A DNA stretch of 64,000 nucleotides from Clostridia bacterium. GTDB taxonomy: Bacteria; Bacillota; Clostridia; Oscillospirales; SIG627. A program made the translations under genes and the position numbers. Of this stretch, positions 1,494 to 52,500 are shown piece by piece. Positions within the stretch are counted from its first letter, which is position 1. Each line of letters opens with the position of its first letter. Under the pieces are notes generated by a model. That model made no database searches, was not told the DNA's origin, and worked only from the letters and a program-made list of their open reading frames with translations. The stretch spans positions 20,953-84,952 of the forward strand of contig JAFWZW010000003.1 in assembly GCA_017517325.1 (NCBI GenBank), in the 5' to 3' direction.

Positions 1494-1524
1494 CAATTCA
1501 ACAAAAAACAAGAAGGTGACGTAT

Positions 1525-2229: not shown

Positions 2230-2234
2230 AAGAA

Positions 2235-2270
2235 AAGATCCCAAGACGGAACGTTCTTGGGATCTTATTT
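2235..2270. terminator. Bidirectional terminator
   Basis: AAGATCCCAAGA (2235-2246) pairs with TCTTGGGATCTT (2255-2266), with a T-rich tail on the plus strand. It lies between two convergent genes. Confidence 0.7.
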
Positions 2271-2822: not shown

Positions 2823-2856
2823 GAAGACACCTCCTATCTTTATCGTCAACTCCCAT

Positions 2857-2885
2857 AGTATACTATTTTCTTTGGAATCAGTCAA
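2857..2885 (-). promoter_or_regulatory. Promoter of the YiiX-like gene
   Basis: On the minus strand, TTGACT (2885-2880) and TATACT (2862-2857) with a 17-bp spacer. Confidence 0.75.
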
Positions 2886-2907
2886 GAAAAAAGCTCGGAA
2901 TTTAATA

Positions 2908-2936
2908 TTGTAATTTTTATCCTATTTGGGTATAAT
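2908..2936 (+). promoter_or_regulatory. Promoter of mnmM
   Basis: TTGTAA (2908-2913) and a perfect TATAAT (2931-2936) with a 17-bp spacer. Confidence 0.7.
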
Positions 2937-2965
2937 GGTAAAAATAAAAGAAATGAGGGCACAAA

Positions 2966-3532
2966 TTGGACTACGCCTTTAACGCTTTGGGGCTATCCCA
3001 CAAATTTATGTCAGAACGGATCAAGCCCGGTTCGGTTTGCATTGACGGTACCGCAGGCAGAGGCCGAGATACCCTTTTCTTATCCAGACTGGTGGGAGAA
3101 AACGGAAGGGTCATCGCCTTTGACATACAGGAGGAAGCGGTGGAAAGCACCCGTGCGCTCCTTTCTGAAAACGACGCAAAAAACGCCGAAGTTCATCTTT
3201 GCTGTCACAGCAAGATGGATGAATTTGCCAATGCCGAAAGCATTGACGGTATTATGTTCAATTTCGGTTGGCTCCCCGGCGGTGATCACAAGGCCTTTTC
3301 CAAGGGTGAAACCTCCGTTGCGGCCATAAAAAAAGGACTAAGCCTTTTAAAGCCCGGTGGCGTTATGACCCTTTGTCTCTATTACGGCAAGGAGAACGGA
3401 ACGGAAGAGAGGGACACCGTTCTCAACCATTTGAAGGAGATTGATTCCAAGGCATACAGTGTTTTCCTGGGGAATTTTATCAACCGAACCTCCTGCCCGC
3501 CCATGATCGTTCTCATTGAAAAGCACCCTTGA
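2966..3532 (+). CDS. mnmM: Class I SAM methyltransferase, YtqB/MnmM type
   Basis: A 188-residue protein that should transfer the methyl group in the last step of mnm5(s2)U34 synthesis at the tRNA wobble position, as shown for YtqB/MnmM of Gram-positives. The SAM-binding motif I reads CIDGTAGRGRDTLFL. The family signatures MFNFGWLPGGDH and the C-terminal NRTSCPPMIVLIEK are both present. The start is TTG at 2966, preceded by GAGGG at a good distance; no ATG fits the N-terminus. It is monocistronic and followed closely by the nitroreductase promoter. The function is inferred from close motif agreement with the family. Confidence 0.85.
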   Translation: MDYAFNALGLSHKFMSERIKPGSVCIDGTAGRGRDTLFLSRLVGENGRVIAFDIQEEAVESTRALLSENDAKNAEVHLCCHSKMDEFANAESIDGIMFNFGWLPGGDHKAFSKGETSVAAIKKGLSLLKPGGVMTLCLYYGKENGTEERDTVLNHLKEIDSKAYSVFLGNFINRTSCPPMIVLIEKHP

Positions 3533-11336: not shown

Positions 11337-11684
11337 TGGTGGAGTCGAGGGGAATCGAACCCCTGTCCGAAATTTGATTCACAGGAACTTCTCCGGGTGC
11401 AGTCGGTGCTTAAAATTCCCGGGCTACGCTGTCCGCCGACAGGCTACGCAGCCGGTAGCTTCATAAATGCATGACCCGACTCAAAGCTTTATCGGATACA
11501 CGTTCACCGCTCATGTGACACCCAAGCCGAGGCCGCGGTGCTCCTCGGGTGGATGGCCGCCTAATTAGGCAGCGAGAGCTACTCTATTGTTAGCGTTTAA
11601 TTTTTAATTTGCAGTTTTGAAGAGTGTCTGCGACTCTACCCGCTACTCCTGCTTCAGAAACCCCGTCGAAACCATTACGACCCC
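11337..11684 (-). ncRNA. ssrA: Transfer-messenger RNA (tmRNA)
   Basis: The 348-nt gene begins GGGGTCGTAATGGTTTCGACG and ends GGTTCGATTCCCCTCGACTCC plus ACCA, so both halves of the tRNA-like domain are present; GGGGTCG pairs with CGACTCC. The tag reading frame is at 11594-11565 (minus): resume codon GCT, then codons giving ANNRVALAA and a TAA stop. VALAA is a typical protease-recognised C-terminus. tmRNA rescues stalled ribosomes and tags the unfinished protein for ClpXP-type degradation. The pseudoknot regions were not folded in detail. Confidence 0.95.
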
Positions 11685-11687
11685 ATA

Positions 11688-12110
11688 TCAGCTATGGCAA
11701 TGGTGACAATCGCCACTGCAATGCTCATGATCACACGCGGTCCCCTCGGGCTCGGGGAACTCCATAACAAAGAGCGTATCGCTGATCTTATCAAAGCCAA
11801 CCGCTTCCGCGATGACGGCATCATCCTCACAGAGAATGGGATAGATCACCGATGCGACCTGTACGCGCTGAAGAAATTCTACCACACTTGTGAACACGTT
11901 TGCAAGCATTTTTACAGAAATTTTATTTTCAATGGCTACTGCATTGAGAATATAGGCGGCTTCTCCCACGAATTTGATCTGAAAGAGACCTAATTTATCA
12001 TCATCCGAAAAGATCTTAAAGCCAACGGCACCTTTCTCCATGGAAACACCTGCGGCGGTGCAATAGGCAAGATGCTCAGTTTCGGATTCAAAGGGGGACA
12101 GGTGGATCAT
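11688..12110 (-). CDS. Hypothetical acyltransferase-like protein with His/Cys tail
   Basis: A 140-residue protein of unrecognised family. The body alternates short strands and helices in a way that resembles a small GNAT domain (FKIFSDDDKLGLFQIKFVGEAAYILNAVAIE), but no clear acetyl-CoA loop is seen. The C-terminus is CDHEHCSGDCHHCHS, four Cys and four His in 15 residues, likely to bind a metal such as zinc, nickel or iron. It overlaps rluB by 4 bp (ATGA) and is the last gene of the long operon, ending just before tmRNA. Function is unknown; a metal-storage or metal-dependent role is a guess from the tail. Confidence 0.65.
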   Translation of the reverse strand: MIHLSPFESETEHLAYCTAAGVSMEKGAVGFKIFSDDDKLGLFQIKFVGEAAYILNAVAIENKISVKMLANVFTSVVEFLQRVQVASVIYPILCEDDAVIAEAVGFDKISDTLFVMEFPEPEGTACDHEHCSGDCHHCHS

Positions 12111-12826
12111 AATTCACACAGCGCCATCAGGGCGCGAAGCTCCTTTTCTTCTAATTCTTCCCAAGTACCGGAACGCAAAGAGCCAAGCTGGACCTTTCCT
12201 TCCGAAATACGCTTCAGTCTCGTAACCTCAAGGCCCACCAGCTCACACATTTTGCGTATCTGGCGGTTTCTGCCTTCTTTCAAGATAAAGCGAAGTTTTG
12301 TGGGAATGGCAGGCTCGGGACAGGTTACCCTGCAAGGAAGGATGGTGTAGCCATCCAACTCCATTGGGCCGTTAAGCTTTTTCATTTGCTCTTCGCTGGG
12401 AACGGTACGAACCTTTACCACGTACACCTTCTCTACCCCGCTTTTAGGATGCATCAGGGCATTGGCAAGGGCCCCGTCGTTGGTCATCAAAAGCAGACCC
12501 TCGGAATCCAGATCCAGACGACCTATGGGATAAACGCGCTCGGGCACGTTCTTCACCAGATCGGCAACGCACTTTCTTCCCTTTTCGTCCGACATCGTAG
12601 AGACGTATCCACGGGGTTTATTGAGCTTAATATAAATTTTCTTGCCGCTGGGAACGACGGTTTTTCCTTGGAAGGTAACGAAATCCTTCCCCGAGCGCAC
12701 CTTCTGACCGATGAGGGCGCATCTTCCGTTGATCATAACCTTTCCTGCGGCAATTTCTTCTTCGGCCTTTCTGCGGCTCATAACGCCGCAATCTGCCAGA
12801 TATTTTTGTATTCTTACTTCTTCCAT
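12107..12826 (-). CDS. rluB: RsuA/RluB-family pseudouridine synthase
   Basis: A 239-residue enzyme that converts uridine to pseudouridine in ribosomal RNA. An N-terminal S4 RNA-binding domain (RIQKYLADCGVMSRRKAEEEIAAGKVMING) is followed by the catalytic domain with GRLDLDSEGLLLMTNDG, whose Asp is the nucleophile. EGRNRQIRKMCELVG is the RsuA/RluB signature. The start is taken as ATG at 12826; a TTG at 12838 is also possible. It overlaps the end of the carboxypeptidase gene, so translation is coupled. The RluB subgroup (23S U2605-type) is more likely than RsuA by length, but this is not certain. Confidence 0.9.
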   Translation of the reverse strand: MEEVRIQKYLADCGVMSRRKAEEEIAAGKVMINGRCALIGQKVRSGKDFVTFQGKTVVPSGKKIYIKLNKPRGYVSTMSDEKGRKCVADLVKNVPERVYPIGRLDLDSEGLLLMTNDGALANALMHPKSGVEKVYVVKVRTVPSEEQMKKLNGPMELDGYTILPCRVTCPEPAIPTKLRFILKEGRNRQIRKMCELVGLEVTRLKRISEGKVQLGSLRSGTWEELEEKELRALMALCEL

Positions 12827-13977
12827 TTTTTTAACCAATCACAAAATCGTTTCCATATTTTTTGCCAAAAACCCGGTGGGATCTCTCTTTGGTCAACGCT
12901 TACCTCCGCACAAAGAGGAATCCGTGCTATCTCATTTTCTCCCAAGGTATAGACGACCTCACCCAAAACGTCATCCTTTGCTATGGGGGCGTAGACGAAG
13001 GTAGGCAATTCCACGCGAGAACGAACGGTTTCTTCCGAACGGATCATACACGAAGCGCTCCCAACGTTTATAAGCGAAAGAACGGGTGCCGTTCCGCCTA
13101 CCACGGGAATCTCAAGCTTTAAGCCACCTTCTTCAACGAGGGTTTCCGAATGATATTGGGAAAAGCCGAAGTCAAAGAGGCTTGCGTGATCCCGCCAGTC
13201 GTCGGGGGCCCCCAAGGTGGTACACACAAGGGTCTTTCCGTCACGGCACGCGGCGGTTACAAGGCATCTTCCCGCCGCTTTGGTAAAGCCCGTCTTCCCT
13301 GCCACGCAGCCATCGTACGAACGAAGCAGACGATTGTGGTTAGAAAGGTAACGGGTCTTGCCTTCGGGGGCTGAAATGGTTTTGGTCCGAGTTCCCGAGA
13401 TCTCCGCAAACAGAGGATTCTTCATCGCACTACACATCAAAAGAGATAGATCCCTTGCTGTAGAGAGGTGTCCATCCTCCTGCAAACCGTTGGGGTTTAC
13501 GAAATGGGAGCCGTTCATTCCCAGCTCCGCCGCTTTTTGGTTCATCGCTTCGGCAAAGGCGGGAACGCTTCCCGAAACGTGAAGGGCAATGGCAACGGCG
13601 GCATCGTTGGCGCTCTCCAGCATCATAGCATAGATCAGCTCCAGCAGGGTCAATTCCTCCCCTGCTACAAGGTAAACGGAGGAGCCTTCGATCCCTACGG
13701 CCTCCTTTGGGATGACAACCTTTGCATTGAGGTCACCCTTTTCCAAGGCCACAAGGCAAGTCATAATCTTGGTTGTGCTTGCCATAGGAACGGCTCGATC
13801 GGCGGCAGACTGGGCTAAAACGGCACCTGTATCCGCATCCATTAAAAAATAGCTTTGTGCTGAGATATCACGCCAAACCGCCACGGCAGTTTCCCCCGGG
13901 GAAGCAAAGACCGTCAACGGAATAAGACACGCAAAAATCAGCGCGAAACAAAGAAATCGGATCCATATTTTTTTCAT
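12814..13977 (-). CDS. dacF: D-alanyl-D-alanine carboxypeptidase (DacF/PBP5 type)
   Basis: A 387-residue low-molecular-weight penicillin-binding protein that trims the terminal D-Ala of peptidoglycan stem peptides. A signal peptide covers about residues 1-26. Catalytic motifs are Ser67-Thr-Thr-Lys70 (SxxK), Ser122-Ala-Asn124 (SxN) and Lys228-Thr-Gly230 (KTG). A PBP5-type C-terminal beta domain follows, and the end (WQKIWKRFCDWLKKWKK) is an amphipathic, aromatic and lysine-rich helix for membrane anchoring. GGGAGA precedes the ATG. It follows the sporulation gene ytfJ in the operon, so a DacF-like role in spore or vegetative cortex is plausible but not proven. Confidence 0.92.
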   Translation of the reverse strand: MKKIWIRFLCFALIFACLIPLTVFASPGETAVAVWRDISAQSYFLMDADTGAVLAQSAADRAVPMASTTKIMTCLVALEKGDLNAKVVIPKEAVGIEGSSVYLVAGEELTLLELIYAMMLESANDAAVAIALHVSGSVPAFAEAMNQKAAELGMNGSHFVNPNGLQEDGHLSTARDLSLLMCSAMKNPLFAEISGTRTKTISAPEGKTRYLSNHNRLLRSYDGCVAGKTGFTKAAGRCLVTAACRDGKTLVCTTLGAPDDWRDHASLFDFGFSQYHSETLVEEGGLKLEIPVVGGTAPVLSLINVGSASCMIRSEETVRSRVELPTFVYAPIAKDDVLGEVVYTLGENEIARIPLCAEVSVDQREIPPGFWQKIWKRFCDWLKKWKK

Positions 13978-14037
13978 TCTGTTTCTCCCTTATCCTCTTT
14001 TTGTGAGTATATGAGAAACAAAATGAAATCATACCCT

Positions 14038-14520
14038 TTATTCTGCGGACACTTCAAGCTCGGCAGGTGCTTCGGCAGACTCTGTGGGTGCTACCGTTTC
14101 TTCCTGCTGTGCTTTCTTCGTATCTTTTTTAAAATAGGATTTGACCTTTTCGAAAATGGCGGGGGATTTATCCACCAGATCCGAAATGGTATTGACGATG
14201 GCACTATCGGAGGAGACGCTGGTGCCGTTCACGTTCATCACCCTCACTTCACCGCCTGATACCACAAGAAAAGTCAGAGGGGTAACGGACATACCAGCAG
14301 CATTGCCGCCGCCGAAATGAGGCATATCACGGCGGGGATTGGCTTTGCTGTCAAAATCCACACCGCCGGAGGTAAAGCCACAGCTCACCTTGGAAATGGG
14401 AATAATGGTAACACCGTCAGGCAGAGAGATGGGGGTACCCACCACGGCATCCGCATCCAACACCTTTTTGATGTTTTCCAATGAGGCATCGATCACTTGT
14501 TTCAACGGGATCTCATTCAT
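14038..14520 (-). CDS. ytfJ: GerW/YtfJ family sporulation protein
   Basis: A 160-residue protein of the YtfJ (GerW) family, a forespore-expressed protein needed for normal spore germination in Bacillus. Family features are GTPISLPDGVTIIPISKVSCGF, then a glycine-rich stretch with FGGGNAAGMSVTPLTFLVV. The C-terminal 30 residues are a low-complexity Ala/Glu tail, longer than usual. The ATG overlaps the stop of the DUF2953 gene by 4 bp, as ytfJ and ytfI are paired in Bacillus. It is a sign that the organism sporulates or descends from a spore former. Confidence 0.92.
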   Translation of the reverse strand: MNEIPLKQVIDASLENIKKVLDADAVVGTPISLPDGVTIIPISKVSCGFTSGGVDFDSKANPRRDMPHFGGGNAAGMSVTPLTFLVVSGGEVRVMNVNGTSVSSDSAIVNTISDLVDKSPAIFEKVKSYFKKDTKKAQQEETVAPTESAEAPAELEVSAE

Positions 14521-15116
14521 GATTGAACATCCTTTCCTTCAAATAATCTTAAATAGGCACGCAAAAGTACGCCGATCAGATGAAACGCTTTTACCGTCAG
14601 ATCCAAATGAATGGAAAAACGGCTTTTTTCCGAAACGAAATCAGGCGCGATCACAAGATTACGGTTATCGCAACGAAAATGGGAATAGTGCTGAAGAAGA
14701 GCGCAAAGACCGTTTGCAGCCTGAATGGCACCGCCGTAAAGAAGAGCCGTCTCTGCGGCATCGGCAGTTCCGATGGAAACGTGAAGCTCCTTCAGGTAGA
14801 TCTTCATTTTGGAAAAATGCTCTTTCAGGGCGCGGCCGATGATCCGACCGATGCGCAAAAGAAATTCGACAAAGCCCAAAGGATCTGCACGGTTTTTGCG
14901 TTTTGTTCCTCCTTGCGCAGGCTCGCTTTCCGCAGACTTTTTCGTTTTCTTTTCTTGGGTAAAACGGCGAAAAAGCTTCATTCCGTCAAAACGAAAAAGT
15001 AAAACACGCACGGTAACCTTGGCGCTCTCGCCGTAAGTAAAAATCACGTGGATATTGACAAAGAGCAAAAAGAGGATTAAAGCCAGAAGAGCCAAAAAAA
15101 CATAAAGAGCGATCAC
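14517..15116 (-). CDS. DUF2953 membrane protein (YtfI-like)
   Basis: A 199-residue protein with one N-terminal membrane segment (LYVFLALLALILFLLFVNIHV) and a following beta-rich region beginning FTYGESAKVTVRVLLFRF, the start of DUF2953. A Lys/Ser/Glu-rich linker near residues 55-75 is followed by the second half of the domain (LHVSIGTADAAETALLYGGAIQA). In spore formers this family (YtfI) is encoded next to YtfJ and is expressed during sporulation. It overlaps both neighbours by 4 bp, so it is tightly co-translated. No enzymatic motif is seen. Confidence 0.85.
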   Translation of the reverse strand: MIALYVFLALLALILFLLFVNIHVIFTYGESAKVTVRVLLFRFDGMKLFRRFTQEKKTKKSAESEPAQGGTKRKNRADPLGFVEFLLRIGRIIGRALKEHFSKMKIYLKELHVSIGTADAAETALLYGGAIQAANGLCALLQHYSHFRCDNRNLVIAPDFVSEKSRFSIHLDLTVKAFHLIGVLLRAYLRLFEGKDVQS

Positions 15117-23501: not shown

Positions 23502-24287
23502 CTATGAAAAATCAACAATTTCACCACCTAAAGCCTCTTCGTAAGGAATCACGGTCAGCTCCGGTGACAGGGCACACAAGGCATCGCGAAAACAATAGAC
23601 CGCATCTTTTTCGGAAGCGTGGTGGCCGCAATCGATAACGGTCATTCCCAGCTCTACCGCTTCCTGGGCAATATGATACGAGATATCCCCTCCCACAAAG
23701 GCATCCGCACCTTTTTCAAGGCAAGGCAATACAAGGTCTTTACCGGAGCCGCAGCAAAAGCCAACTTCCTCAATATCAAGCCCGGCGGAATATAGGCGAA
23801 CGGGCGCACCCAAAGCAGAAGAGACGCGCTCCGCCAGATCTTCGGGGCTTATTTTTTCGCACAACGAGCCAATGGCACCGATGAAAGGCTCGTTCTCTAA
23901 AAGAGGCTCGCGGCGGTACGGAGCAACCACGCCGATCTTCTCACCCAAACGGTCGTTCAACCCGTCTACCGCTCCGTCAAAACGGGTGTGAAGACTGATC
24001 AAAGAGATACCCGCCTGCATTAAAAGGATGATCTTCTGCCCTACAAGGGTATCTTCGTTAATAGCCTTAACGGGCGAAAAGATCAAAGGGTGATGGCTTA
24101 CGATCAATTGGCACCCCTCAGCCATAGCTTTTTCAATGGCGGAAAAGGTAACGTCAAGGCAGGTGAGCACGCGTGTGATCTCCTGCTCACGGTCGGGACA
24201 GACCAAAAGCCCGTCGTTATCCCAAGAACAAGCGCGTTCTACGGGATAGATCGTTTGAAAATAAGCTTCCAGATCACGAATTCTCAT
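23502..24287 (-). CDS. Nif3-like dinuclear metal center protein
   Basis: A 261-residue protein of the Nif3/YqfO/DUF34 family. The metal-site residues lie in LIVSHHPLIF (His-His), LISLHTRFD (His and Asp) and near the C-terminus in VIDCGHHASE (His, Glu). The N-terminus CSWDNDGLLVC is the usual family start. Proteins of this family form toroidal hexamers with a two-metal site; a role related to GTP cyclohydrolase I-like chemistry or metal insertion has been suggested. GGAGG precedes the ATG at 24287. It overlaps the end of trmK by 14 bp, the conserved trmK-yqfO pair of Firmicutes. Confidence 0.93.
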   Translation of the reverse strand: MRIRDLEAYFQTIYPVERACSWDNDGLLVCPDREQEITRVLTCLDVTFSAIEKAMAEGCQLIVSHHPLIFSPVKAINEDTLVGQKIILLMQAGISLISLHTRFDGAVDGLNDRLGEKIGVVAPYRREPLLENEPFIGAIGSLCEKISPEDLAERVSSALGAPVRLYSAGLDIEEVGFCCGSGKDLVLPCLEKGADAFVGGDISYHIAQEAVELGMTVIDCGHHASEKDAVYCFRDALCALSPELTVIPYEEALGGEIVDFS

Positions 24288-25005
24288 TGATAGCCTCCAG
24301 TTGTGAAAGGTATAACGCCTCCTCCTTTTTTTCCAAGGATACGTCAAAACCCGCTTTTTCTTTTCCGACGATTTTCGACCTCACCTTGGCAAGGCGTTTT
24401 TCAAAATAAAGCGAAGCCCCCTCCCCTTTCGTTTGGGAAAGGTATTCGCCCACTAAATAAAATTCAGGATCCCGCTCTCTTCTGACACCGTCAAATCGCG
24501 CACGGAAGATGAGAAAGACCTTGCCGTTTTCCCCAATGGCTTGCTCCCCTTCTACCGAAAAGCCGTTCTCATAAAGGAATTTGCGAAGCAAATGCGCACG
24601 GCTCATAGGCTGAAGAACGAAGCCGGTATTCAAAGGAATCCGATCCAAAGCCCGGGAAAGGATCCCGGCAATCGTTTCGCCGCCCATTCCTGCAATCACG
24701 AAGGTATCGGGAGAAAGAGAGATCACATCCAAAATACCGTCGGTCAGAAAAAACTGCGCCTTATGAGCGATGCCGGCACTTGTCAAAGCCGCTTTGGCAC
24801 GGGCAAGGGGCTCGGGATTCAAATCGGTCACGATGGCGTGGCGGCACCACCCGTTTTCCAAAAGGAAAAGCGGAAGCGCTCCGTGGTCTGAGCCAACGTC
24901 ACACACCACACCGCCCCGTGGCAAGCTCTCCGCAATGGCGGAGAGTCTTGCCGAAAGGGATGCGGACCTTGCACCTCCGGCATTATTTGCTTGCCAGATA
25001 TGCAT
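24274..25005 (-). CDS. trmK: tRNA (adenine-N1) methyltransferase TrmK family
   Basis: A 243-residue enzyme that methylates N1 of A22 in tRNAs. SAM motif I is CDVGSDHGALPLFLL, and the catalytic region is VIAGMGGETIAGIL. The C-terminal half is the coiled-coil domain of the family (EKRLAKVRSKIVGKE to KKEEALYLSQL). The ATG at 25005 is chosen because GGAG lies 7 bp upstream. It overlaps the end of the DUF1858 gene by 23 bp. This gives about 15 residues more than relatives have before SARLSAIAE, so a later non-ATG start is possible. Confidence 0.88.
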   Translation of the reverse strand: MHIWQANNAGGARSASLSARLSAIAESLPRGGVVCDVGSDHGALPLFLLENGWCRHAIVTDLNPEPLARAKAALTSAGIAHKAQFFLTDGILDVISLSPDTFVIAGMGGETIAGILSRALDRIPLNTGFVLQPMSRAHLLRKFLYENGFSVEGEQAIGENGKVFLIFRARFDGVRRERDPEFYLVGEYLSQTKGEGASLYFEKRLAKVRSKIVGKEKAGFDVSLEKKEEALYLSQLEAINENS

Positions 25006-25186
25006 TGATCTTCTCCACCAGGGCATCGGCATCAGTTCCGTGAACGGCACAAGCCTGGGCAATGGATTCTCCGCGGGAAGCGGGGCAACCGAGGCAATGC
25101 ATACCGATCTCAAAAAAGAACTGTGCAGTTCCCTGATCTGCATCCAGAATATCACCGATGATGCTTTCTTTGGTTACAGAGGTCAT
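24983..25186 (-). CDS. DUF1858 domain protein
   Basis: A 67-residue helical protein. The family signature is EIGMHCLGCPASRGESIAQAC, with the CxxC pair that could bind metal or form a disulfide. Relatives are small, often fused to hybrid-cluster or redox proteins, and have no assigned reaction. The ATG at 25186 has AAAGGAG upstream; the ATG at 25204 does not. It lies between the pseudo-ATPase and trmK. Confidence 0.88.
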   Translation of the reverse strand: MTSVTKESIIGDILDADQGTAQFFFEIGMHCLGCPASRGESIAQACAVHGTDADALVEKINAYLASK

Positions 25187-25213: not shown

Positions 25214-27856
25214 TTATGAATCGCGCCCTTGGGCGGGATCATCTTTTTTCAAAAACTTCATCCATTCCGAGATCACAAGAGGGATCACGGCTAAAACGGT
25301 GGCAAAGAACAGGATCCAGAAGCTGATACCGGAGCCTGCGGCACCCGTCTGCCAAAGTCTCTTCAGTGGCGTTGCCACAGTCAGAAGAAGCACGAAGAGG
25401 CAGAGCCCCAAGGTGATAGCACCGATTTTTCCGATCTGGCGAAGACGCTGAAGCAGGTGACCGTCAAACTTTACGGACAGAGAGGAAAACCAGGAAGCCA
25501 TCACGAAGGTGATCAGTGCGGCGCTTTGAGCCGTATCCGCCCCGCCTGATGCATACAGAGCGATCTGGTAGGAAAGCATCGTAGCAATGGCCTGGGTGAT
25601 ACCGATGATCAGAGGAATGATGATCAGGACCTGCAGAGAGGCAACGCGGTCATCCTTCAGAACGCCCTTGTTATCCTCAAGCTTTGGCCCGGGCAAGCGG
25701 TAAAAAATATTGGCCCCTGCGGGGATGATGGCTCCAAGCCCTGCAAGAAGCATTGGCAAACGCTCAAAAGGGACCGTGCCGTGAGCCGTCAGAGAAATCA
25801 AAATACTGATTCCAAGCGCTACCTGTACAAGGAGCACATACTGCATAATATGGACCACGTTGCGATAGAAAATGCGTGCCCAATTGATACAAAAGGGCAT
25901 CAATTCGTATTTCTTTTCTTTTACCAAAAGATCCGCATTGAGGCGGACTGCATTGAGCTTTTCCTCTGCGCTGACCACGGAAATATCCGATTCCATTTGA
26001 GGCAGGGTGTTATAAAGCCCGTCGGTCATGGAAAGAGTGATATCCCCATTATCCTTATGGTATTTTACAATGCTTTGCTTCTCCTCAACCGGGAAGCCGC
26101 AATACGCCTTGTATTTTTCAATATCGGCAACGAATACGCCTCGATCCATTCGCTCGTAGGTCTGGTAAGACAGAGCGTACTGATAATCGTTCTCGCCGAT
26201 GATGGAAACGCTCTTGGAAAGGGCCGCAACCGTTTCGGGGTAGTCATCCGTAAGCAGATACGTAATGACGCCTGATTTCTGACAGGTATTTACCGCATTG
26301 GCAGCGGCGGCGCTGATGGGGGTGGAAAGCCCGAAAACGCCCAGATACGTCATCCCCCTACAGAGCCTTCTCTGATCTCCCGTTGAAGGCGAGGATACGG
26401 AAAGGGTGGCGACGGCGACGATGCGCTCGCTGATCCCCGCAAGATGACGTGCATCTGCACGCAAAGCGGCACGGACGGATTCATTCATCGCATGGCTTTG
26501 CCCGTCCTTCCATATTTCCGTACAAGCTGCCAGAACGGAATTGGGGTTGCCTCGGATCACCAGCCGATACTTTCCTTCGCAAAGGGTCAGAGCGCAGGAA
26601 TAGCCCAGCTTTGGGTCAAAATCATAGCGATTGATAAACAGGTGCTTTTTTTCAAGCCTTGTTTTTTGGATCCCGATTCCTGCAGCGGCAGACATTATGG
26701 CCTTTTCCGCCTGCCACTCTTCCCTTTTGCCTGTGTAGTATTCTTTGCCGCTTTGTGCAAGTAGCAGATTTTCAAGAAGCGGAGCGGCTTTTTCGCCCGC
26801 CTCTTTAAACTCAAAGCAATTCTGCCCCAAATAGAAAGAGCTGGGAATGGGGCTTGAATAAAAGAGATAATCGCTGGAATTGACGAACACGCAGTTTACG
26901 TCACTTAAACGGTCGACGGCACCGGGATTTCGCAGGATGACGCCTTCTCCGAAGAGCTTTGCCGTCATAAAAGCGATGGCAAGATCGCACAGATGCTCAA
27001 TGGAATCGGGGAAAGCGGCAATCACCGCAGCAGAGGCGTAGTAGAAGGAATCAAATACGTCCTGACCGCGAAACACCCCGAAGGCAAAGAGAAAAAAGCA
27101 GGTGACGACCCAAATCATAGAGATCTGCTTTTTCAGCTCCGTAGCGGTGCGGTAGATCTGAGGAACGGTGGTGTTCTGACGGGAAACGGTAAAATTCTCA
27201 TTATCAAATATGTTTCTGCCTGTATTGCAAACGAACACCTTGGCACTACCGTGAAGGACCACGCTACCCGCAAAAAGGATACAATCGAAGTACGGAAGGG
27301 CACTTTCCTCTTCCTCTACCTCGGCATGGCTTCGTTTGAAAACGGGAACACGCCTGCCGGTCACGCTGGCTTCCAGGATCTTTAAGGCACTGTGCTTTAA
27401 GATAATACCGTCGCAGGGCATCACGTCGCCTTTTTCCAAAAGAAGAATATCCCCCGGCACCAATTCACTTTTGGCCACGGAGCGGATCCTGCCGGAACGG
27501 CGCACATGGTATTTACTTCGGGAATAACGCTCCGTTTTTTTCTGAACGGAACGGCAATAAAAATGGGTGCCCAGCACGATGGAAGCGTAAAGCAGTGACA
27601 CTGCGATCATTGCAATCAGCGACGTTACGTTCCCCGTTCCCACGTAGTCAAGAAAGCCCACCACGAGAAAGAGGATCATCATAATATCGCCGAAGATCTT
27701 TTTCAGAAGGCCTGAAGCGGTATTTTTCTTTTCAAAGAGAATATTTTCGCCAAATTCACGGCGATTCTGCAAAACCTGCTCCGAGGTAAGACCCAATTCG
27801 GGATCGGTACCCAAAATGGAGCGAAGCTTCTCTAAGTTGACTTCCAGTAGATTCAT
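25214..27856 (-). CDS. P-type ATPase homologue with degenerate catalytic motifs (pseudo-ATPase)
   Basis: An 880-residue protein with the full layout of a P-type cation ATPase: N-terminal cation-ATPase segment, two membrane helices, actuator domain, two helices, P/N domains, then about six C-terminal helices. The reading frame is uninterrupted, but the hallmark residues are gone. The actuator TGES reads TGRR (166-169). The M4 PEGL reads PDSIEHL (283-289). The phosphorylation motif DKTGT reads NSSDY, with Asn326 in place of the catalytic Asp. KGA reads RGN (435), TGD reads TDD (536-538), and GDGxND reads TDGLYN (611-616). ATP-driven transport through a phospho-enzyme is therefore unlikely. Its ATG overlaps the stop codon of the ClpE-like gene by 4 bp. 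A regulatory, scaffold or sensor role is inferred only from the combination. Confidence 0.85.
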   Translation of the reverse strand: MNLLEVNLEKLRSILGTDPELGLTSEQVLQNRREFGENILFEKKNTASGLLKKIFGDIMMILFLVVGFLDYVGTGNVTSLIAMIAVSLLYASIVLGTHFYCRSVQKKTERYSRSKYHVRRSGRIRSVAKSELVPGDILLLEKGDVMPCDGIILKHSALKILEASVTGRRVPVFKRSHAEVEEEESALPYFDCILFAGSVVLHGSAKVFVCNTGRNIFDNENFTVSRQNTTVPQIYRTATELKKQISMIWVVTCFFLFAFGVFRGQDVFDSFYYASAAVIAAFPDSIEHLCDLAIAFMTAKLFGEGVILRNPGAVDRLSDVNCVFVNSSDYLFYSSPIPSSFYLGQNCFEFKEAGEKAAPLLENLLLAQSGKEYYTGKREEWQAEKAIMSAAAGIGIQKTRLEKKHLFINRYDFDPKLGYSCALTLCEGKYRLVIRGNPNSVLAACTEIWKDGQSHAMNESVRAALRADARHLAGISERIVAVATLSVSSPSTGDQRRLCRGMTYLGVFGLSTPISAAAANAVNTCQKSGVITYLLTDDYPETVAALSKSVSIIGENDYQYALSYQTYERMDRGVFVADIEKYKAYCGFPVEEKQSIVKYHKDNGDITLSMTDGLYNTLPQMESDISVVSAEEKLNAVRLNADLLVKEKKYELMPFCINWARIFYRNVVHIMQYVLLVQVALGISILISLTAHGTVPFERLPMLLAGLGAIIPAGANIFYRLPGPKLEDNKGVLKDDRVASLQVLIIIPLIIGITQAIATMLSYQIALYASGGADTAQSAALITFVMASWFSSLSVKFDGHLLQRLRQIGKIGAITLGLCLFVLLLTVATPLKRLWQTGAAGSGISFWILFFATVLAVIPLVISEWMKFLKKDDPAQGRDS

Positions 27857-30135
27857 ACTTCCTCTTTATCGGTCGTAATGCAAATTTTACCATCCTTTAC
27901 CGAGAGACGAACGCCACGGATCAAACGTTCACGGTCTGCCACCAGATGATCGGCAACGGGATCCTCAACGCGGGTCTGCAGGAATCGCGCCATATTTCTC
28001 GCACCGTACTTTTCACTGTAGCTTTCCTCAGCAATATATGCCACAACGGCATCGTCATAGGAAAGAGCAAGGCCTTTTTCTGCCATAGCATCCTTCAGTT
28101 CACGCATACGCAAGGCAGCGATTTTCACAAAATCCTCGCGGGAAAGCTTGCGGAAGGTGATGATCTCATCCACGCGGTTAATAAATTCGGGGCGTAAAAA
28201 CGCTTCCAGCCCCTTCAGGGTGCGGGAGCCTTCGGCGTCATCCAGACTGTGGCCAAAGCCTGAAATGCCGGAGCGCACCTGACTGCCGGCGTTGGTGGTC
28301 ATCACGATAACGGTATTTTCAAAATTGATCTCTTTACCGTGGGCATCGCTGACCTTGCCGTCATCCAGGATCTGCAGGAGCACGTTGAGTACGTCGGGAT
28401 GTGCCTTTTCGATCTCGTCAAACAGTACTACGGAATAGGGCTTGCGGCGGATCTTCTCCGTCAGCTGACCAGCATCGTCATAGCCCACGTAACCGGGAGG
28501 TGAACCGATGATACGGGAGACTGCGTGCTTTTCCATATATTCCGACATATCAAGACGAATGAGAGCATCGGGCGTATCAAAGAGCTGACAGGCAAGCTGC
28601 TTGACCAGCTCCGTTTTACCCACACCCGTGGGTCCTGCAAAAATAAAGCTGGCAGGCTTTGCCTTTACGCTGATACCGGCACGATGGCGCTTGATGGCAC
28701 GGCAGACGGCATCCACCGCTTCATCCTGTCCGATGATATGATCGGAAAGGATCTCTTTCAGACCTACGATCTTTTCAAATTCATTTTCGGAAATGCTGGC
28801 GGCGGGAATCCCCGTCCAGGATTCAATGACGCGGGCAATATCCTCGATGGTCAAAGCAATACCGTCACGCTCACGGGAGAGTCTTGAAAACTCATCCTCC
28901 AAGCGCATTTGCGACACCTTGATCTCTGCAATGCGGGCGTAGACGGAATCATCGGGATCGCTTTTGGATTCCAGTTCTTCCCGCTCGGAGCGAAGGGTTC
29001 CCAGTTCTTTGGAAATGGCGTCGATCCGATTGATCACGTCACTTCCGATGGCCTTTCCTGCGCAGGCTTCGTCCAGAATGTCAATGGCTTTATCCGGCAG
29101 GAAGCGATCCGTAATGTACCGCTCCGAAAGATTTACGGTGGTGCGAAGGATGCCCTGAGGCACCTTCAGGCCGTGAAAGGCTTCGTAATACTTCTTTATG
29201 CCTTCCAAGATCTCAATGGTTTTGGAGGCGTTGGGCTCTTCCACCATCACGGGCTGGAAGCGGCGTTCCAAGGCCTGATCCTTTTCAATATATTTGCGAT
29301 ATTCCGCAAGAGTCGTGGCGCCGATGATCTGAATTTCACCGCGGGAGAGAGCGGGCTTTAAGATATTGGCACAGCTCATACCGCCTTCCGCATCCCCGGC
29401 CCCTACGATGGTATGGATCTCGTCGATCACCAGAATCACGTTCCCCTGCTTTTTGATCTCTTCCACAAGGCTCTTCACTCGGCTTTCAAATTGGCCGCGG
29501 AAATGGGTTCCGGCAACCATTGCCGTAAGATCCAGAAGAAAGACCTCTTTATCCTGCAGACGCACCGGGACCTTTTTGTCGGCAATGGCTTGGGCCAAAA
29601 GCTCTGCAATGGCGGTTTTACCCACGCCGGGCTCACCGATCAGGCAAGGGTTATTCTTCTGTCGGCGGCAGAGGATCTGGATCACACGGGCAAGCTCGGC
29701 TTCTCTGCCGATGACCCGATCCAGTTCCCCGCGGACGGCCTTGCGAGTCAGATCCAAGCAATATCCTTCCAGCATTTTAGAGTGCTTAGGCGCTTTTTTT
29801 CCGCCTTTTTCTCCACGGTTGTTGCCGGAGGATTCTTCCTTTTCGTTATCGTTTTTCACGGGAACGGGAGGCGTAATGGCGCCGAACAGAGCACCAAGAT
29901 CCATAGCGGAAGCATCCCCGTCCTGAGAGGCCTCCACCATTTGCTCCATTTGCTGTTCAAAAAGCTCCAGATCCTCTTCACGGATCCCCATTTTTTCCAT
30001 CTGATCTGCCAAGGGCATAATTTTCAGTTCCTTGGCACAACGAATACAAAGCCCCTCAGAGGTGACCTTTTCACCCTGGATCTTGTTTACGAAAATAACG
30101 GCGGGGCGGACCTTACAACGGGCACATAGTTTCAT
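27853..30135 (-). CDS. clpE: ClpE/ClpC-type AAA+ unfoldase with N-terminal zinc finger
   Basis: A 760-residue Hsp100 protein that unfolds proteins for ClpP. Residues 1-40 form a zinc ribbon with Cys4, Cys7, Cys30 and Cys33, as in ClpE and McsA. A low-complexity linker (about 85-118) replaces the Clp-N repeats. The first AAA+ module has Walker A GEPGVGKT (167-174) and Walker B VILVIDEIH; the second has GPTGVGKTE and VVLFDEIEKAH, then the arginine-finger region RPEFINRVDEII. A middle coiled coil lies between them. The gene is translationally coupled to the pseudo-ATPase downstream and is 3 bp from pgsA upstream. ClpE name follows the zinc finger; a ClpC identity cannot be excluded. Confidence 0.9.
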   Translation of the reverse strand: MKLCARCKVRPAVIFVNKIQGEKVTSEGLCIRCAKELKIMPLADQMEKMGIREEDLELFEQQMEQMVEASQDGDASAMDLGALFGAITPPVPVKNDNEKEESSGNNRGEKGGKKAPKHSKMLEGYCLDLTRKAVRGELDRVIGREAELARVIQILCRRQKNNPCLIGEPGVGKTAIAELLAQAIADKKVPVRLQDKEVFLLDLTAMVAGTHFRGQFESRVKSLVEEIKKQGNVILVIDEIHTIVGAGDAEGGMSCANILKPALSRGEIQIIGATTLAEYRKYIEKDQALERRFQPVMVEEPNASKTIEILEGIKKYYEAFHGLKVPQGILRTTVNLSERYITDRFLPDKAIDILDEACAGKAIGSDVINRIDAISKELGTLRSEREELESKSDPDDSVYARIAEIKVSQMRLEDEFSRLSRERDGIALTIEDIARVIESWTGIPAASISENEFEKIVGLKEILSDHIIGQDEAVDAVCRAIKRHRAGISVKAKPASFIFAGPTGVGKTELVKQLACQLFDTPDALIRLDMSEYMEKHAVSRIIGSPPGYVGYDDAGQLTEKIRRKPYSVVLFDEIEKAHPDVLNVLLQILDDGKVSDAHGKEINFENTVIVMTTNAGSQVRSGISGFGHSLDDAEGSRTLKGLEAFLRPEFINRVDEIITFRKLSREDFVKIAALRMRELKDAMAEKGLALSYDDAVVAYIAEESYSEKYGARNMARFLQTRVEDPVADHLVADRERLIRGVRLSVKDGKICITTDKEEV

Positions 30136-30138
30136 ACT

Positions 30139-30780
30139 TTACTTTCCTTCAACGGATTCACGTTTCTTTTGTTCTTTTTTATTTTGAATGATCGCATCCT
30201 TGGTGGATTCGATCTGAGATGCATAATTAAACACGTACATAACGAAGGCCATGAGCATCACGAGAATGAGAATGATGCAGAGAAGATTAGCCAAAAAGAG
30301 GTCGCCGCCGGCCACAGTATGAAAAAAATGAACTACACAGATCAGAACGTACCATACGATGGTGGCAAGCTTTCCGCACCAAACGGCGGAAACGTAGACG
30401 TTGCTTTTTGACATAATCAGATAGGCGCCGACGATCATCACGATCTCCTTTGTGATAATGATCACCGCTAAGATCACGAAGGGGCCGCGGAAGGCAACGG
30501 CAAGGCATATGGTAACCGCAACCTCCAAAAGCTTGTCGGCAAGAGGATCAAGGAGTTTTCCTACGTTGGTGATCCAGTTATTCCGACGAGCAAGAAAACC
30601 GTCCACCGCATCGCTGATTCCGGCTAAAATGAAAACGATGCCGGCAGCACGAAGCTGTTCCGCCTGGGTGCCGCGATCGATCACGCCGAAAAAGAAGAGA
30701 ACGTAGACGGGCACCAGAAGAATGCGGAATGCAGATATGTAATTGGGAATTTGCTTTGCTTTGAACGCAAGTGATTTCAT
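30139..30780 (-). CDS. pgsA: CDP-alcohol phosphatidyltransferase (PgsA-like)
   Basis: A 213-residue membrane enzyme with about five helices. The catalytic CDP-alcohol phosphatidyltransferase signature DGxxAR...G...D...D is complete in DGFLARRNNWITNVGKLLDP plus LADK. It most likely makes phosphatidylglycerol phosphate from CDP-diacylglycerol and glycerol 3-phosphate, judged by the N-terminal IPNYISAFRILLVPVYVLFF and size. The C-terminal ~25 residues are charged and cytoplasmic. It lies between cvpA and clpE in the operon. Confidence 0.9.
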   Translation of the reverse strand: MKSLAFKAKQIPNYISAFRILLVPVYVLFFFGVIDRGTQAEQLRAAGIVFILAGISDAVDGFLARRNNWITNVGKLLDPLADKLLEVAVTICLAVAFRGPFVILAVIIITKEIVMIVGAYLIMSKSNVYVSAVWCGKLATIVWYVLICVVHFFHTVAGGDLFLANLLCIILILVMLMAFVMYVFNYASQIESTKDAIIQNKKEQKKRESVEGK

Positions 30781-30783
30781 TTC

Positions 30784-31500
30784 TTATCCTTTCGTGATGG
30801 AGAACATTCCAAAAAAATCAAAACCTGAGAGAAATTTTAAAAGATAAGTCTGTTCAGGGTCAAACGAAGCCAAAAAAGGATTGGGGCTACTACCGATCCA
30901 GGGGGCGGCGGAAACCAAAATTGCAGACAATACAAGCACCAGAAAAAAGCCCTGCAGAGCACCTGCCAAAAGACCCAAAAAACGGTTTGAAAAATTAAGA
31001 ATCGGAAGTTTGGAAATCAGATCCAGAAGGTGCACCGCAATGCGAACGGCAACGGAAAACACCACGAATAAAAGGAAAAACGCCAAGGCGTAGGAGGCGG
31101 CATCAGCCAAAGGCAAGGCCACGAAGCCGGAAACGGTATCTGCAGCGGCATCCCCCACGGTCTGAGAAGCGGTGGCCACATGATCTGCAATGGCTTCAGC
31201 ATCAGTTCCAAAGCGCGCAAGAAGCTGTTGACAGCTTTCCGGCAAAGCGGAAAAATCAATGCCGGATGCGCTCTGCCCTATTTCTTGAGACAAGACAGTC
31301 AAAAAGCGCTGACGCAGAAACGGATAGAAAAACGCAGAGCTGAAAAAGGAGCCAAGGGGCTTTGCAAACAACGAGGTGAGGAAAAAGGCAATAATACTGC
31401 CGAAAAAGCCGAAAAAGCTTTTAATAAAGCCACGCTTCTTTCCCATCCAGATGCATAGGATCAAAATAGCCAGAAGCAGAAGGTCGATCAAAATATTCAT
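30784..31500 (-). CDS. CvpA-family membrane protein
   Basis: A 238-residue protein with four hydrophobic segments. The start, MNILIDLLLLAILILCIWMGKKRGFIKSFFG, is the standard CvpA opening. The later part, FLGLLAGALQGFFLVLVLSAIL, is the last helix pair. CvpA proteins are linked to colicin V export in E. coli and to envelope homeostasis in other bacteria; the activity is not known. A ~60-residue insert between helices 2 and 3 is predicted outside the membrane. It overlaps the DUF5711 gene by 4 bp. Confidence 0.85.
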   Translation of the reverse strand: MNILIDLLLLAILILCIWMGKKRGFIKSFFGFFGSIIAFFLTSLFAKPLGSFFSSAFFYPFLRQRFLTVLSQEIGQSASGIDFSALPESCQQLLARFGTDAEAIADHVATASQTVGDAAADTVSGFVALPLADAASYALAFFLLFVVFSVAVRIAVHLLDLISKLPILNFSNRFLGLLAGALQGFFLVLVLSAILVSAAPWIGSSPNPFLASFDPEQTYLLKFLSGFDFFGMFSITKG

Positions 31501-32678
31501 TTCGAATCTCCTTTCTTATCTAAAAAGCGGATCTTGGCGGTAGTATCGGAGCAAAGGATCACCGTATCCTCCGAAAGCACGCCGAAATCGGAATATTCCC
31601 CATCCAGCGTATAGGATTTCATTTCTTCATCAGCACGAAGCACGTAAAGCTTGGCGTGAGTCAAAACGTAAACGGTATCTTCCCAGGTTTCTACCTTGAG
31701 GATCTGAGAGGAAAGCTTTTCAGAGATAAGCTCCTGACCTTTTTCGTCAAATGCGCGCAGACGGAAATTGACACCGATGGAGAGCTCGTCCTGCACGATA
31801 CAAAAGAGTTCTTCTCCCAAAGAGATCTGCTCAAGACTTCCAGCGGGAATGGATGCACTTGCTACCGTTTCCCCATCATCCATAAAGGTAATGGTTTCAT
31901 CGGTAACCAAAACGGCAAAATCACGATGAGATCGGACGGCAAGCGGGATCTGATCCGCAAAGCTTACGGTATAAAGGGGTATCTCTTCCCCAAGCTTCAA
32001 CCCGATCATCTCCCCAAGCAGTTCGCCGTTCTGGGTTTTGACGGTGGTAACGTTCAAAATGTTTTGATCGGAAAGGTAAGCGTCTATCGCAAACTTATCG
32101 GCAGAAAGCCAGCGGTGGATCTCTTCAAAATCCCGATCGTAAACGAAGACGGCGGAATGGTAGGATTTTTCAGAGGTGACCACGCAAAAGGCACCGTCAC
32201 CGTTGATGGATACGCCCTGTACCGCATAGTCAAAGGTATTTTCATACAGCAAAGAGAAGGAATTATAAATGCGAACCTGATAACCGCCCAGATCGTAAAT
32301 GGCAAGATATCGGTCACCGCAGACGGCGGTGGGATTGGTCATACTGTAAGAATCGGTCATAACGGCACTGCCGCGGCGGTCGTAAAGAGTGACACCGCTT
32401 TCGCTGACCAGTGCAAGGTCGCCGCGGAACACGTGGAAGCGGTTGCCGGAATCGGCGTTGTAATGGATCACCGTTTCCTCGTTAAAGGTACCGGATGAGG
32501 AAAAATCCAGATATTTGATCAAATAGCGGAGGTTTTCGATGGTAATATCGTTTCTGAAAAGGATCAGACCGCCCAATAAAAAGGCAACGAGCACAATAAT
32601 GGCCACAAGTTTCATTCGCTTGAATTTTTTTACCTTGATCTCAGAACGGGTATCCCCCATTTTTTCTGCTTGGTTCAT
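31497..32678 (-). CDS. DUF5711 single-pass membrane protein with propeller-like ectodomain
   Basis: A 393-residue protein with a short cytoplasmic Lys-rich N-terminus, one membrane helix (MKLVAIIVLVAFLLGGLILF, ~residues 22-41), and an extracellular beta-rich domain of WD40/YVTN-like repeats (for example LYDRRGSAVM, FVYDRDFEEIHRW, YVLRADEEMKSY). It matches the DUF5711 group known mainly from Clostridia, which has no assigned function. It is co-translated with cvpA (4-bp overlap) and lies downstream of truA with a 36-bp gap. Confidence 0.8.
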   Translation of the reverse strand: MNQAEKMGDTRSEIKVKKFKRMKLVAIIVLVAFLLGGLILFRNDITIENLRYLIKYLDFSSSGTFNEETVIHYNADSGNRFHVFRGDLALVSESGVTLYDRRGSAVMTDSYSMTNPTAVCGDRYLAIYDLGGYQVRIYNSFSLLYENTFDYAVQGVSINGDGAFCVVTSEKSYHSAVFVYDRDFEEIHRWLSADKFAIDAYLSDQNILNVTTVKTQNGELLGEMIGLKLGEEIPLYTVSFADQIPLAVRSHRDFAVLVTDETITFMDDGETVASASIPAGSLEQISLGEELFCIVQDELSIGVNFRLRAFDEKGQELISEKLSSQILKVETWEDTVYVLTHAKLYVLRADEEMKSYTLDGEYSDFGVLSEDTVILCSDTTAKIRFLDKKGDSK

Positions 32679-49194: not shown

Positions 49195-49569
49195 ATGTTT
49201 CTGAAATCACCCGACAAGGGTGCGGGTCAGAAGTCCTCCGTTCCAAAAGAAGGCGATCTGTTCAAGGTCATCCGGATCCGCGAAAAAACCTTTGAGATCC
49301 GATATGGCTTCTATGAAGAACGAGATCGGCACGTACCAAATGCCGAGCCTATGGAGATCTACCCCGACTTTATCCGCAACCCACAGCACACCGATGACGG
49401 TATTCCGATCATCACGGCAATTCAAAGCCCTTGCAAGCACTATAAAGGTAAGAAGGATGAAAACAGCACCTGCGAGGAATGTTCTTTTTACCAGGCTCAC
49501 GAGGAATTGATCGGGCTTTGTACTTGCCCTAAAAACAAACTGAAAACGGAAGGAGTCCAAGATGGTTAA
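49195..49569 (+). CDS. Hypothetical Cys-containing protein, 124 aa
   Basis: A 124-residue soluble protein without signal peptide or membrane segment. The N-terminal part is Lys-rich; a middle segment, DLFKVIRIREKTFEIRYGFYEERDR, is beta-like. The C-terminal third holds six Cys: SPCKHYKG, STCEECSFYQAH and LCTCPKN, arranged as a C-x?-CxxC...CxC cluster that could bind zinc or iron. The family is not recognised. AAAGGAGAA precedes the ATG. Its last codons overlap the start of the giant surface protein, so they are translationally coupled. It may act in assembly or regulation of that protein. Confidence 0.65.
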   Translation: MFLKSPDKGAGQKSSVPKEGDLFKVIRIREKTFEIRYGFYEERDRHVPNAEPMEIYPDFIRNPQHTDDGIPIITAIQSPCKHYKGKKDENSTCEECSFYQAHEELIGLCTCPKNKLKTEGVQDG

Positions 49570-52500
49570 AGCCTTTCCTTCTATCAATAAAGTCCCAAAA
49601 CAAACAAACGACACGGAGAAACGAACTATGAAAAAAACGAAACTTTCCAAACGCATTATAAGCTTCTTTTTGTGCTTGACTTTACTTGCAAGCTACCTTC
49701 CTCTTTCTGTTTTGGCAGGGAGCTCTTCCCTTTCTCGCGCCGCCATCGCAGGAGCCGTTACCGACCCGGGCACGGCGGATAGCTGGGAAAATATGCTTGG
49801 CACGGCGCAGGACGGAAACCGTTATGCCGGCAGAGTATGGGTAGACAAATCCGTTTACAAAGACGGTGACGTTGCCATTCTCAACAGCAAAAACACCTCC
49901 GGCTCACATTTTTCGGTAGATTTGGAGGATGACGAGGACTTTCAGGTTATCTTCTCCGCCCTTGGCTCCACTATGACCACCAAGGAATCCACCACCTCCA
50001 CCGGTCCTATGGACGTGGTTCTGGTTCTGGATACCTCCACATCTATGGATGATGAGGACCGCAACGGCGTTACCCGCTTAGAGAGAACCATTACCGCTGC
50101 AAACAGCTTGCTTGACGATCTTCTCACCCTGCAAAACGTTCGGATCGCCATCGTAACCTACAATAATGACAGCGAAACCGTTATTCCTCTTGCCGCTTAT
50201 ACAAACGGCATTGAGCTGGTGGTTACCGATTATTATAATAACGGCTCCTCCGATGCCGGTGTTGTGACGGCTTATGACAATAACCGCAACGTTCTGGGAA
50301 AAGACGACGGCTACACCATGGGCACCAACCTTCAGTCAGGTATCGACAGAGGCTTTAACATTCTTGCAAATGCCACGGGCGTATCAGGACGCATTCCCGT
50401 TGCCATCGTTCTCACCGACGGTCAGGCTAACCGCGCCGACAGCGAAGGATTCTACGAGCTCTCCACTCACAGTGATAAAGACGGCACCTCTGCCAGCGGC
50501 AGAAACCTTTATCTAAGCACGCTGCTCAACGCCGCTTACAACAAAACGAAAATTGAAGAAAACTACGGCAAGGATGCCACCGTTTACTCCGTTGGCGTTG
50601 ATATTACAAACAACGTTGTGGCAAGACTTCTGATGAACCCTGCCGATCCCACCAACGGATTTAACGCAAGAAACGCAAACTCCGACGTAAAGAGAGCTTA
50701 CGAATATTTCCAGAGATGGGCAAACGGCGAAACCGTAACCTACAACCGTTGGACCTTCGATCACAATTATCCCACCCAAAACGGCGCCATCACCGACGCA
50801 AAAATTGCCGCCAATATCAACTACGCCGATACCTACTACGACGTTTCCAACGCTGATATTGCCGACACCTTCGAGCAGATCTACGAAGAACTTTCCTCCG
50901 GTGTTTTCAACCCCATTTCCTCCACCACGATCACAGACGGTGCAACCGGTGTGGCTCACACCCCTTTGATCTACGTTGACTTTATCGGTCAGTACATGGA
51001 GATCAAAGAGATCCAATCCGTTACGCTCTTCGGCGCCTCTTACGGCGTAATCCAAAATGCTAACGGTACCTACACCGTTGATACCGCTACCGGCACCAAC
51101 CCCACTACCAACGAAGCTTGGAATACCCGCGACGATATTCTCATCTCCGTAACCGAAGAGGCCGACGGGACCCAGAAGCTGGAGATCCGGATCAATCAGG
51201 AGATCCTGCCCATTATTTTAGAGCAGGCCGTTTCTGAAACCGTAGGCAACAAGACCACTGCAACCATTTATGAATTTCTGCAGGATCCCCTTCGCATCTA
51301 TTACACAATTGGCGTTGATTCCGATATTCTGCTTCCCAGCGGGCAAATCGACGTTTCCAAAATTCAAAACTACCGGCATGTTAACGCTGCCGAGGGCACC
51401 GTTTCCTTCTACAGCAACCGCTTTGGCGTAATGAACCCTGCCAATGCCAACGTCGTAACCAAGGGCGATGCTCACGTAGGCTTCAAGCCCTCCCTTGAAA
51501 ACAGATACTATTATCATCAGACAAATCAGGGCATTTTTACCAAGATCACCGATAAAACCAACGGCAGTGCCGTTACCTTCCCCTCCAATAGCGAATACGG
51601 TATCCTTTGGGATGAATCCAAGTATGGCCTGACCTGGATGTCTTACGCAGAATACCTGGCCGCAACAGATAACACCAAGGTCTACACCTATGTTTCCTAT
51701 TATCACCCCACCCCCGACACCACCGACGCTCAAAACGCAGCTGAGGAGGTTACCTATCTGGTATATACCGATTGGAAATACCTGAAGGAATCCGTAGCGT
51801 TCTTCGATGCAAATTCCAACACATACCTTAACGGCGGCAACGTTCTTGAAGAGAGTCAGGTTGCAAGCACCGTATCCGCTTACCTTCAGGCTAACCCCAA
51901 AGCTAAAATCTACGCCGTACTGGGAATCGGCTCTCACCGCACCAGCCGTCTTCACAATATGACTGTAGCCAAAACTCTCAACAACACCGAAACGGCGGCA
52001 GAGCGCTACACTCCCGAATACACCTACGACACCGCCACCCTGCACAACGGCAACGACGTGGTGGTATGGCTTGGCAACAACGGTAAATTGACCGTAAAGA
52101 TCGATACCGGCATCGCTCTGACCAAGAGAGTGACGGAAGCCATCGGAAACCCCAATGATACCTACGCATTGACCGTAACCGTACCCTCCGGTGTCGTGGC
52201 TACCCCGAAGGTAGTAGATGCACATGGCAATACCGTTCAAAGCACCTACAGCGGAAACGTTCTGACAGTTCAGGTAAAAGCTGACGAGACCGTTTATATC
52301 AGCGGTATTCCCGGCGGTACCCAGTGTCAGATCGGTGAAGTGGTAAACGGCGATTACTTTGTTGCAAGCAAAACCGATACCGTCACCGTTCCTCTTGCAA
52401 GTGATGCCTTAAACGGAGCGGCACAATTTGCCACTGCAACCGTTACCAACGCTCCCAACCAATACGGTAATCTCTTTATCACCAAAGAGATCACAAGCGA

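Follow-up and report, generated by a model that had tools for sequence, protein, structure and literature searches.

A P-type ATPase family without its catalytic motifs is encoded beside a ClpE-like unfoldase in three GTDB families

The 64,000-nucleotide stretch of clostridial DNA analysed here (the window) holds a gene for an 880-residue protein, identified by homology as a full-length P2-type P-type ATPase, in which the motifs of catalysis have been lost. Loss of these motifs was seen in every orthologue read, across three GTDB families; the motif-less proteins tested form one clade, are under purifying selection and have a fixed place next to one gene for a ClpE-like AAA+ unfoldase. We give roughly even chances to the view that a single ancestral pump gave rise to a membrane partner of this Clp unfoldase that has no catalysis of its own.

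Results

The initial annotation had described an open 880-residue frame with the layout of a P-type ATPase. This description was borne out by the frame itself (Table 1; the plus-strand reading of the same interval is broken by stops), by Pfam and by alignment with the Listeria calcium pump LMCA1 (lmo0841), the best solved relative of the window protein, over residues 20-866 (E 1.9e-40). The 880 residues match Cation_ATPase_N, E1-E2_ATPase and Cation_ATPase_C in Pfam but give no match to the HAD hydrolase domain, whereas all three ordinary paralogues examined from related genomes carry the same three domains plus PF00702 (Hydrolase). The 25 members of our profile A2 match PF00122 (25/25), PF00690 (24/25) and PF00689 (17/25), and PF00702 is absent from the families that they match. 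With N-terminal, A, P/N and C-terminal membrane domains in the expected order, the protein is predicted to have the fold of the P-type superfamily. LMCA1 and other P2A calcium pumps are the nearest solved relatives by sequence and align end to end (profile A2, E 7.9e-133); Pumps, however, retain their catalytic and ion-site motifs, as the ordinary paralogues do, and LMCA1 shows DKTGT and GDGVND in the alignment, whereas the family described here (hereafter the pseudo-ATPase) has no intact TGES, DKTGT, TGD or GDGVND.

Table 1. Positions in the window of the pseudo-ATPase gene, its motif sites, the genes of its locus and two other features.
Feature	Window positions	Strand	Residues	Remarks
NIF3/DUF34 protein	23502..24347	-		downstream neighbour
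TrmK methyltransferase	24274..25155	-		downstream neighbour
Pseudo-P-type ATPase gene	25214..27856	-	880 aa	ATG start, no internal stop
GDGVND position (P domain), reads TDGLYN	26009..26026	-	611-616	GDGVND intact in 0/70 orthologues
TGD position (P domain), reads TDD	26243..26251	-	536-538	TGD intact in 0/70
KGA position (N domain), reads RGN	26546..26554	-	435-437	KGA intact in 12/70 orthologues
DKTGT position, reads NSSDY	26867..26881	-	326-330	DKTGT intact in 0/70 orthologues
M4 PEGL region, reads PDSIEHL	26990..27010	-	283-289	acid kept
A domain	27137..27556	-	about 101-240	best conserved part; limits approximate
TGES position, reads TGRR	27350..27361	-	166-169	TGES intact in 0/70 orthologues
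ClpE-like AAA+ unfoldase	27853..30135	-		N-terminal CxxC...CxxC; stop overlaps pseudo-ATPase start by 4 bp
CDP-alcohol phosphatidyltransferase (PgsA-like)	30139..30780	-		upstream in conserved locus
CvpA/Colicin_V family membrane protein	30784..31500	-
DUF5711 protein	31497..32678	-
Surface protein	49562-56095	+	2177 aa	von Willebrand A domain, several Spy0128-like isopeptide (FctA) domains
FeoB ferrous iron transporter	58584-60731	-

All six motif changes that had been read in the window protein stand. The reading is refined at the level of single letters: the T and G of TGES, the T and D of TGD and the first Asp of GDG survive, and an acid stands at the position of the M4 Glu. The idea that Asn326 and TGRR might be conserved in relatives did not hold. 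The column of Asn326 reads D in nine, N in five, H in five and E in two of the 21 proteins of the window's own family (f1), with other letters in the other two families (f19 and f20), and TGRR itself is not conserved; Asn326 was thus dropped as a special residue.

We read motifs in 92 motif-less proteins (21 from f1, 33 from f19 and 38 from 37 genomes of f20, the f20 genome G794 counting twice), and compared 70 orthologues with 19 ordinary paralogues residue by residue. None of the orthologues has an intact DKTGT, TGES, TGD or GDGVND, whereas all 19 paralogues have each of them. KGA is intact in 18 of the 19 paralogues and in 12/70 orthologues; the 13 orthologues with an Ala in that column are all of f19, and the KGA Lys, which is Arg in the window protein, is found in 18/70 (16 of these f19). 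Because an intact pump among low-scoring or untested Clp neighbours would speak against the motif-less reading, 20 more proteins, all encoded directly behind Clp (in 17 f20 and 2 f19 genomes), were read as well, and DKTGT, TGES, TGD and GDGVND were at their places in 0/20 (in one, L210, the letters TGES occur away from the motif position). Intact DKTGT was therefore found in none of the 70 orthologues and none of the 20 further neighbours.

Judged by DKTGT, TGES, TGD, GDGVND and the KGA lysine, the family would not be classed among P-type enzymes, nor, despite the kept M4 acid, would it be classed among P2A calcium pumps, which combine the PEGL acid of M4 with the N..TD ligands of M6. The thought that it is nevertheless an ATP-driven pump of unusual chemistry draws on human ERMA, for which one report argues magnesium transport dependent on the Asp of the DKQGI loop, with TGES gone and GDGVND replaced by GSSANL (PMC13322241), and on the Asp that 14/70 orthologues retain at the phosphorylation column. 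The other 56/70, including the window protein with its Asn, have another letter there, however, the Glu of TGES is present in 8/70, the first Asp of GDG in 7/70, and the M6 Asn and M6 Thr in none of the 70, and we regard such a pump as very improbable. Since the chemistry of the phosphorylated Asp, the Mg site and the M6 ligands are gone, the pseudo-ATPase should form no phosphoenzyme and should not pump, and it would be expected not to hydrolyse ATP.

What is kept is not spread evenly over the protein. Across the 70 proteins 32 columns are at least 85% identical, and the A domain holds 17 of them; within f1 the A domain is again best conserved and M5-M10 least. Where the family has its specific Cys210 (87%), which lies in the A domain, the usual residue of ordinary pumps is Thr, and where it has Ala196 (93%) they mostly carry Ser or Met. 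At lost sites the lineages show constant letters of their own (e.g. Trp in place of the P-domain Lys in 30 of 31 f19 proteins). In the membrane, an acid (D or E) is kept at the M4 position in 61/70 orthologues and in 16/20 of the proteins read later, and the position of the M6 Asp holds Asp in 18/18 proteins of f20, Asn in 30/31 of f19 and Asp in 0/21 of f1. Two f20 copies are too rearranged to align: L110 (G063, 1317-3383; 689 aa) has lost the N (nucleotide-binding) domain, and L111 (G081, 11343-14822) is a 1160-aa frame with long insertions.

Each species is represented in the genome collection by a single genome, in many cases fragmented or incomplete. Among 59 related genomes, orthologues turned up in 20 f1 genomes besides the window's own, at 27-68% identity and with scores of at least 286 bits, against at most 188 for ordinary pumps. 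A family-wide search gave the gene in 21 of 23 f1 genomes; G004 and G006 gave no match, and since both also lack the EcfT of this locus, the locus is probably missing from these assemblies. In f19 the same kind of protein was reached by a profile search over 395 genomes of the order, and in f20 by reading the genes that follow Clp. Outside the order, 391 genomes of the class were searched and 28 besides the window's own exceeded the threshold; the 19 fetched from these all keep DKTGT, although distant motif-less members may be missed by the order- and class-wide searches, which in most rows gave scores to only two candidates per genome. The tree of 66 proteins, built by a quick search and with several f20 rows on long branches, joins the 46 motif-less proteins in one clade (SH-aLRT 100), separate from the 19 ordinary pumps, and f1 and f19 each form one clade within it (100 and 100).

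Many motif losses at once, together with the two rebuilt f20 copies, are what a decaying pseudogene or an assembly artefact might show. Ten pairs were compared for dN/dS (Nei-Gojobori), two of which, one of them a pair of ordinary pumps, gave no value because dS was saturated. The three best pairs gave 0.055 (dS 0.44), 0.075 (dS 0.68) and 0.062 (dS 1.18), far from the value near 1 that decay would bring; L017/L020 gave 0.204 (dS 1.17), the highest, and three pairs with dS above 1.5 gave 0.097-0.119, while a control pair of ordinary pumps gave 0.077. Along L011/L013, windows over residues 441-660 (the N and P regions) gave 0.01 and the last window, over the C-terminal helices, was looser at 0.30. 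By these ratios, selection on the pseudo-ATPase is strongly purifying, like that on a working pump. With long open frames in many species, a conserved locus and neither relaxed selection nor generally broken frames, we rejected decay, to which we leave almost no chance. Dozens of related species keep the dead pump behind the same Clp, which argues for a selected protein and not a broken gene. The proposal of the initial annotation, that this is a kept protein without catalytic motifs, is in this respect supported by the absence of intact DKTGT and the low dN/dS, and the conserved motif-less state is, as far as sequences can tell, firm.

The locus itself is conserved. The order DUF5711-CvpA-pgsA-Clp-pseudo-ATPase-TrmK-NIF3 is largely kept over the f1 stretches that were fetched, with TrmK not detected in the L041 and L050 loci; further genes of the locus we take, from reading their sequences, to be truA, ecfT, ecfA and argS. 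The Clp is ClpE-like, and its CxxC pairs suggest a zinc ribbon. In f1, the pseudo-ATPase lies directly downstream of this Clp in 20 of 21 genomes (in the exception, G009, both genes are present but apart), and its start is -4 to +5 bp from the Clp stop in 15 of the 18 loci measured. The pair is present in 49 of 63 f19 genomes, with one more cut by contig ends, and, with coordinates read by eye, a P-ATPase-like match lies directly behind Clp in at least 53 of the 105 f20 genomes that have that Clp; in some f20 loci the open frame begins up to about 250 bp past the Clp stop. One f20 genome (G794) has the pair twice, on different contigs (L201 on C123 and L202 on C75), both copies motif-less. At 30 loci sampled across 22 further families of the order, Clp stands with no P-ATPase beside it, although the preceding genes are largely the same. 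In the Clp tree, which has 72 rows, those with the pair fall within one clade of 43 (SH-aLRT 99), which includes three rows without a partner (G096, G080 and G050, one of them from family f6). One gain and a few losses of the partner gene is the simplest reading of this tree.

Residuals of evolutionary rate gave, in an eight-gene set, 0.43 for the pseudo-ATPase against Clp, the highest of its seven values, and in a six-gene set 0.41 against ecfA2, 0.41 against DUF5711 and 0.39 against Clp; the signal is weak and not specific. Because other genes of the locus reach equal values, rate covariation does not decide the link to Clp. In the tripeptide for ClpP docking, GF is preceded by A, S, T or P in 39 of the 40 Clp proteins from genomes with the pair, and by L, V, M or I in 22 of the remaining 33 (among which are the ClpC-like L147 and one unparsed protein). 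The difference follows one clade, whose three partnerless members show P, A and L, and the tripeptide was dropped as a sign of partnership. A match to PF00574 (the ClpP family) was found in 61 of 63 f19 genomes, a few of these matches being only weak or partial. Finally, a second, longer Clp (at least 600 bits; ClpC-like by length and identity) occurs in 1 of 50 f19 genomes with the pseudo-ATPase versus 11 of 13 without it. Mutual exclusion was rejected as a rule, since the window's own genome, of f1, holds both.

A motif-less pump might also act as a regulatory subunit, forming a dimer with one of the cell's ordinary P-type pumps. Ordinary pumps whose motifs are intact were indeed read in nine f1 genomes (among them G004, which gave no pseudo-ATPase), and further P-ATPase matches occur in most f19 genomes, with motifs read only in G188. 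Against this, 9 of the 50 pseudo-ATPase-bearing f19 genomes show no second match at E 1e-60, a threshold below which weaker pump types would fall, and five of the nine (G391, G197, G145, G095 and G284) are at least 93% complete. We therefore set this partnership aside as improbable.

Discussion

The results presented here suggest the following history. In the ancestor of this group of GTDB families, a single event would have brought a P2-type cation pump to lie behind a ClpE-like Clp gene, and the pump would then have lost its phosphorylation, dephosphorylation and Mg-binding motifs and most of its ion site while being kept as a non-catalytic membrane protein. Its helices would anchor it in the membrane, making it the membrane-embedded partner of Clp, and its cytoplasmic head, in which the A domain is best kept and the P and N domains are also constrained, may dock or regulate the unfoldase at the membrane. 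A ligand could possibly be felt through the acidic residue kept in M4. We favour a membrane partner of Clp because the head is under selection and the gene lies beside that of the unfoldase, with start and stop touching in most f1 loci; the gene neighbourhood likewise favours a scaffold or regulator of Clp among the possible roles. The new role is probably related to Clp and exerted at the membrane. A more detailed picture, in which a former pump, now a membrane dock or regulator of an AAA+ unfoldase, senses through its old ion site and places or gates Clp without itself burning ATP, is offered as a tentative model.

Gene order alone can be inherited, and we infer the Clp partnership from gene order together with a weak rate test. 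The other families sampled have the Clp but no such partner, as do three members of the pair-bearing Clp clade; in G009 the two genes lie apart, and in some f20 loci a gap separates them, all of which counts against the partnership. A different reading is that the protein stands alone as a membrane sensor or a lipid- or ion-binding protein, in the manner of TMEM94, and shares only an operon with Clp. Since the M4 acid is mostly kept and the M6 position is nearly constant in f20 (Asp) and in f19 (Asn), a ligand site may remain in the membrane; the operon also holds PgsA and CvpA; and in one study TMEM94 lacked ATPase activity and showed a lipid within its membrane gorge (PMC12134183). Such a sensor leaves unexplained, however, why in three families the gene stays on the same side of a single Clp, nearly touching it in most of the f1 loci measured, and we consider it somewhat unlikely, if a serious contender. 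Sensing of a ligand by the M4 acid would fit both the stand-alone sensor and the partner of Clp.

Human TMEM94 (ERMA), of P-type fold with TGES lost and GDGVND replaced, is the closest precedent, in mode of working, for a P-type protein without catalysis. Its cryo-EM structure shows P-type architecture without TGES, with no nucleotide at the site and no ATPase activity, and the same study, which found AMPPCP to bind in the micromolar range and saw a bound lipid, speaks against a magnesium ATPase (PMC12134183). It differs from the pseudo-ATPase in being a eukaryotic protein of the ER that keeps the Asp (DKQGI), and its function is disputed. PfGC-beta of Plasmodium is reported to be a working protein with a degenerate P4-ATPase domain, although here the ATPase-like domain belongs to a protist, is of P4 type and is fused to a guanylate cyclase (PMC6592433). 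Among bacteria, the P6 ATPases such as CtpE form a P-type family with a changed M6 ion site, but CtpE has PEGL (PMC10654040) and is reported to take up calcium (PMC5615198). Neither a bacterial family of motif-less P-type proteins nor a link of one to Clp was found among the matches listed in the open-licence literature.

The fold of P-type ATPases is taken to be defined by a single phosphorylated Asp. A family of bacterial proteins that lacks the catalytic motifs and is yet under selection like that on a pump suggests that this fold can be re-used for another job. Because Pfam and PHROGs both class the motif-less window protein among ATPases, the family is also a warning for annotation. It may provide a clean system for the question raised by TMEM94/ERMA, namely what a P-type protein does without its chemistry, and, being tied to one Clp gene, it hints that an AAA+ unfoldase may have a partner in the membrane.
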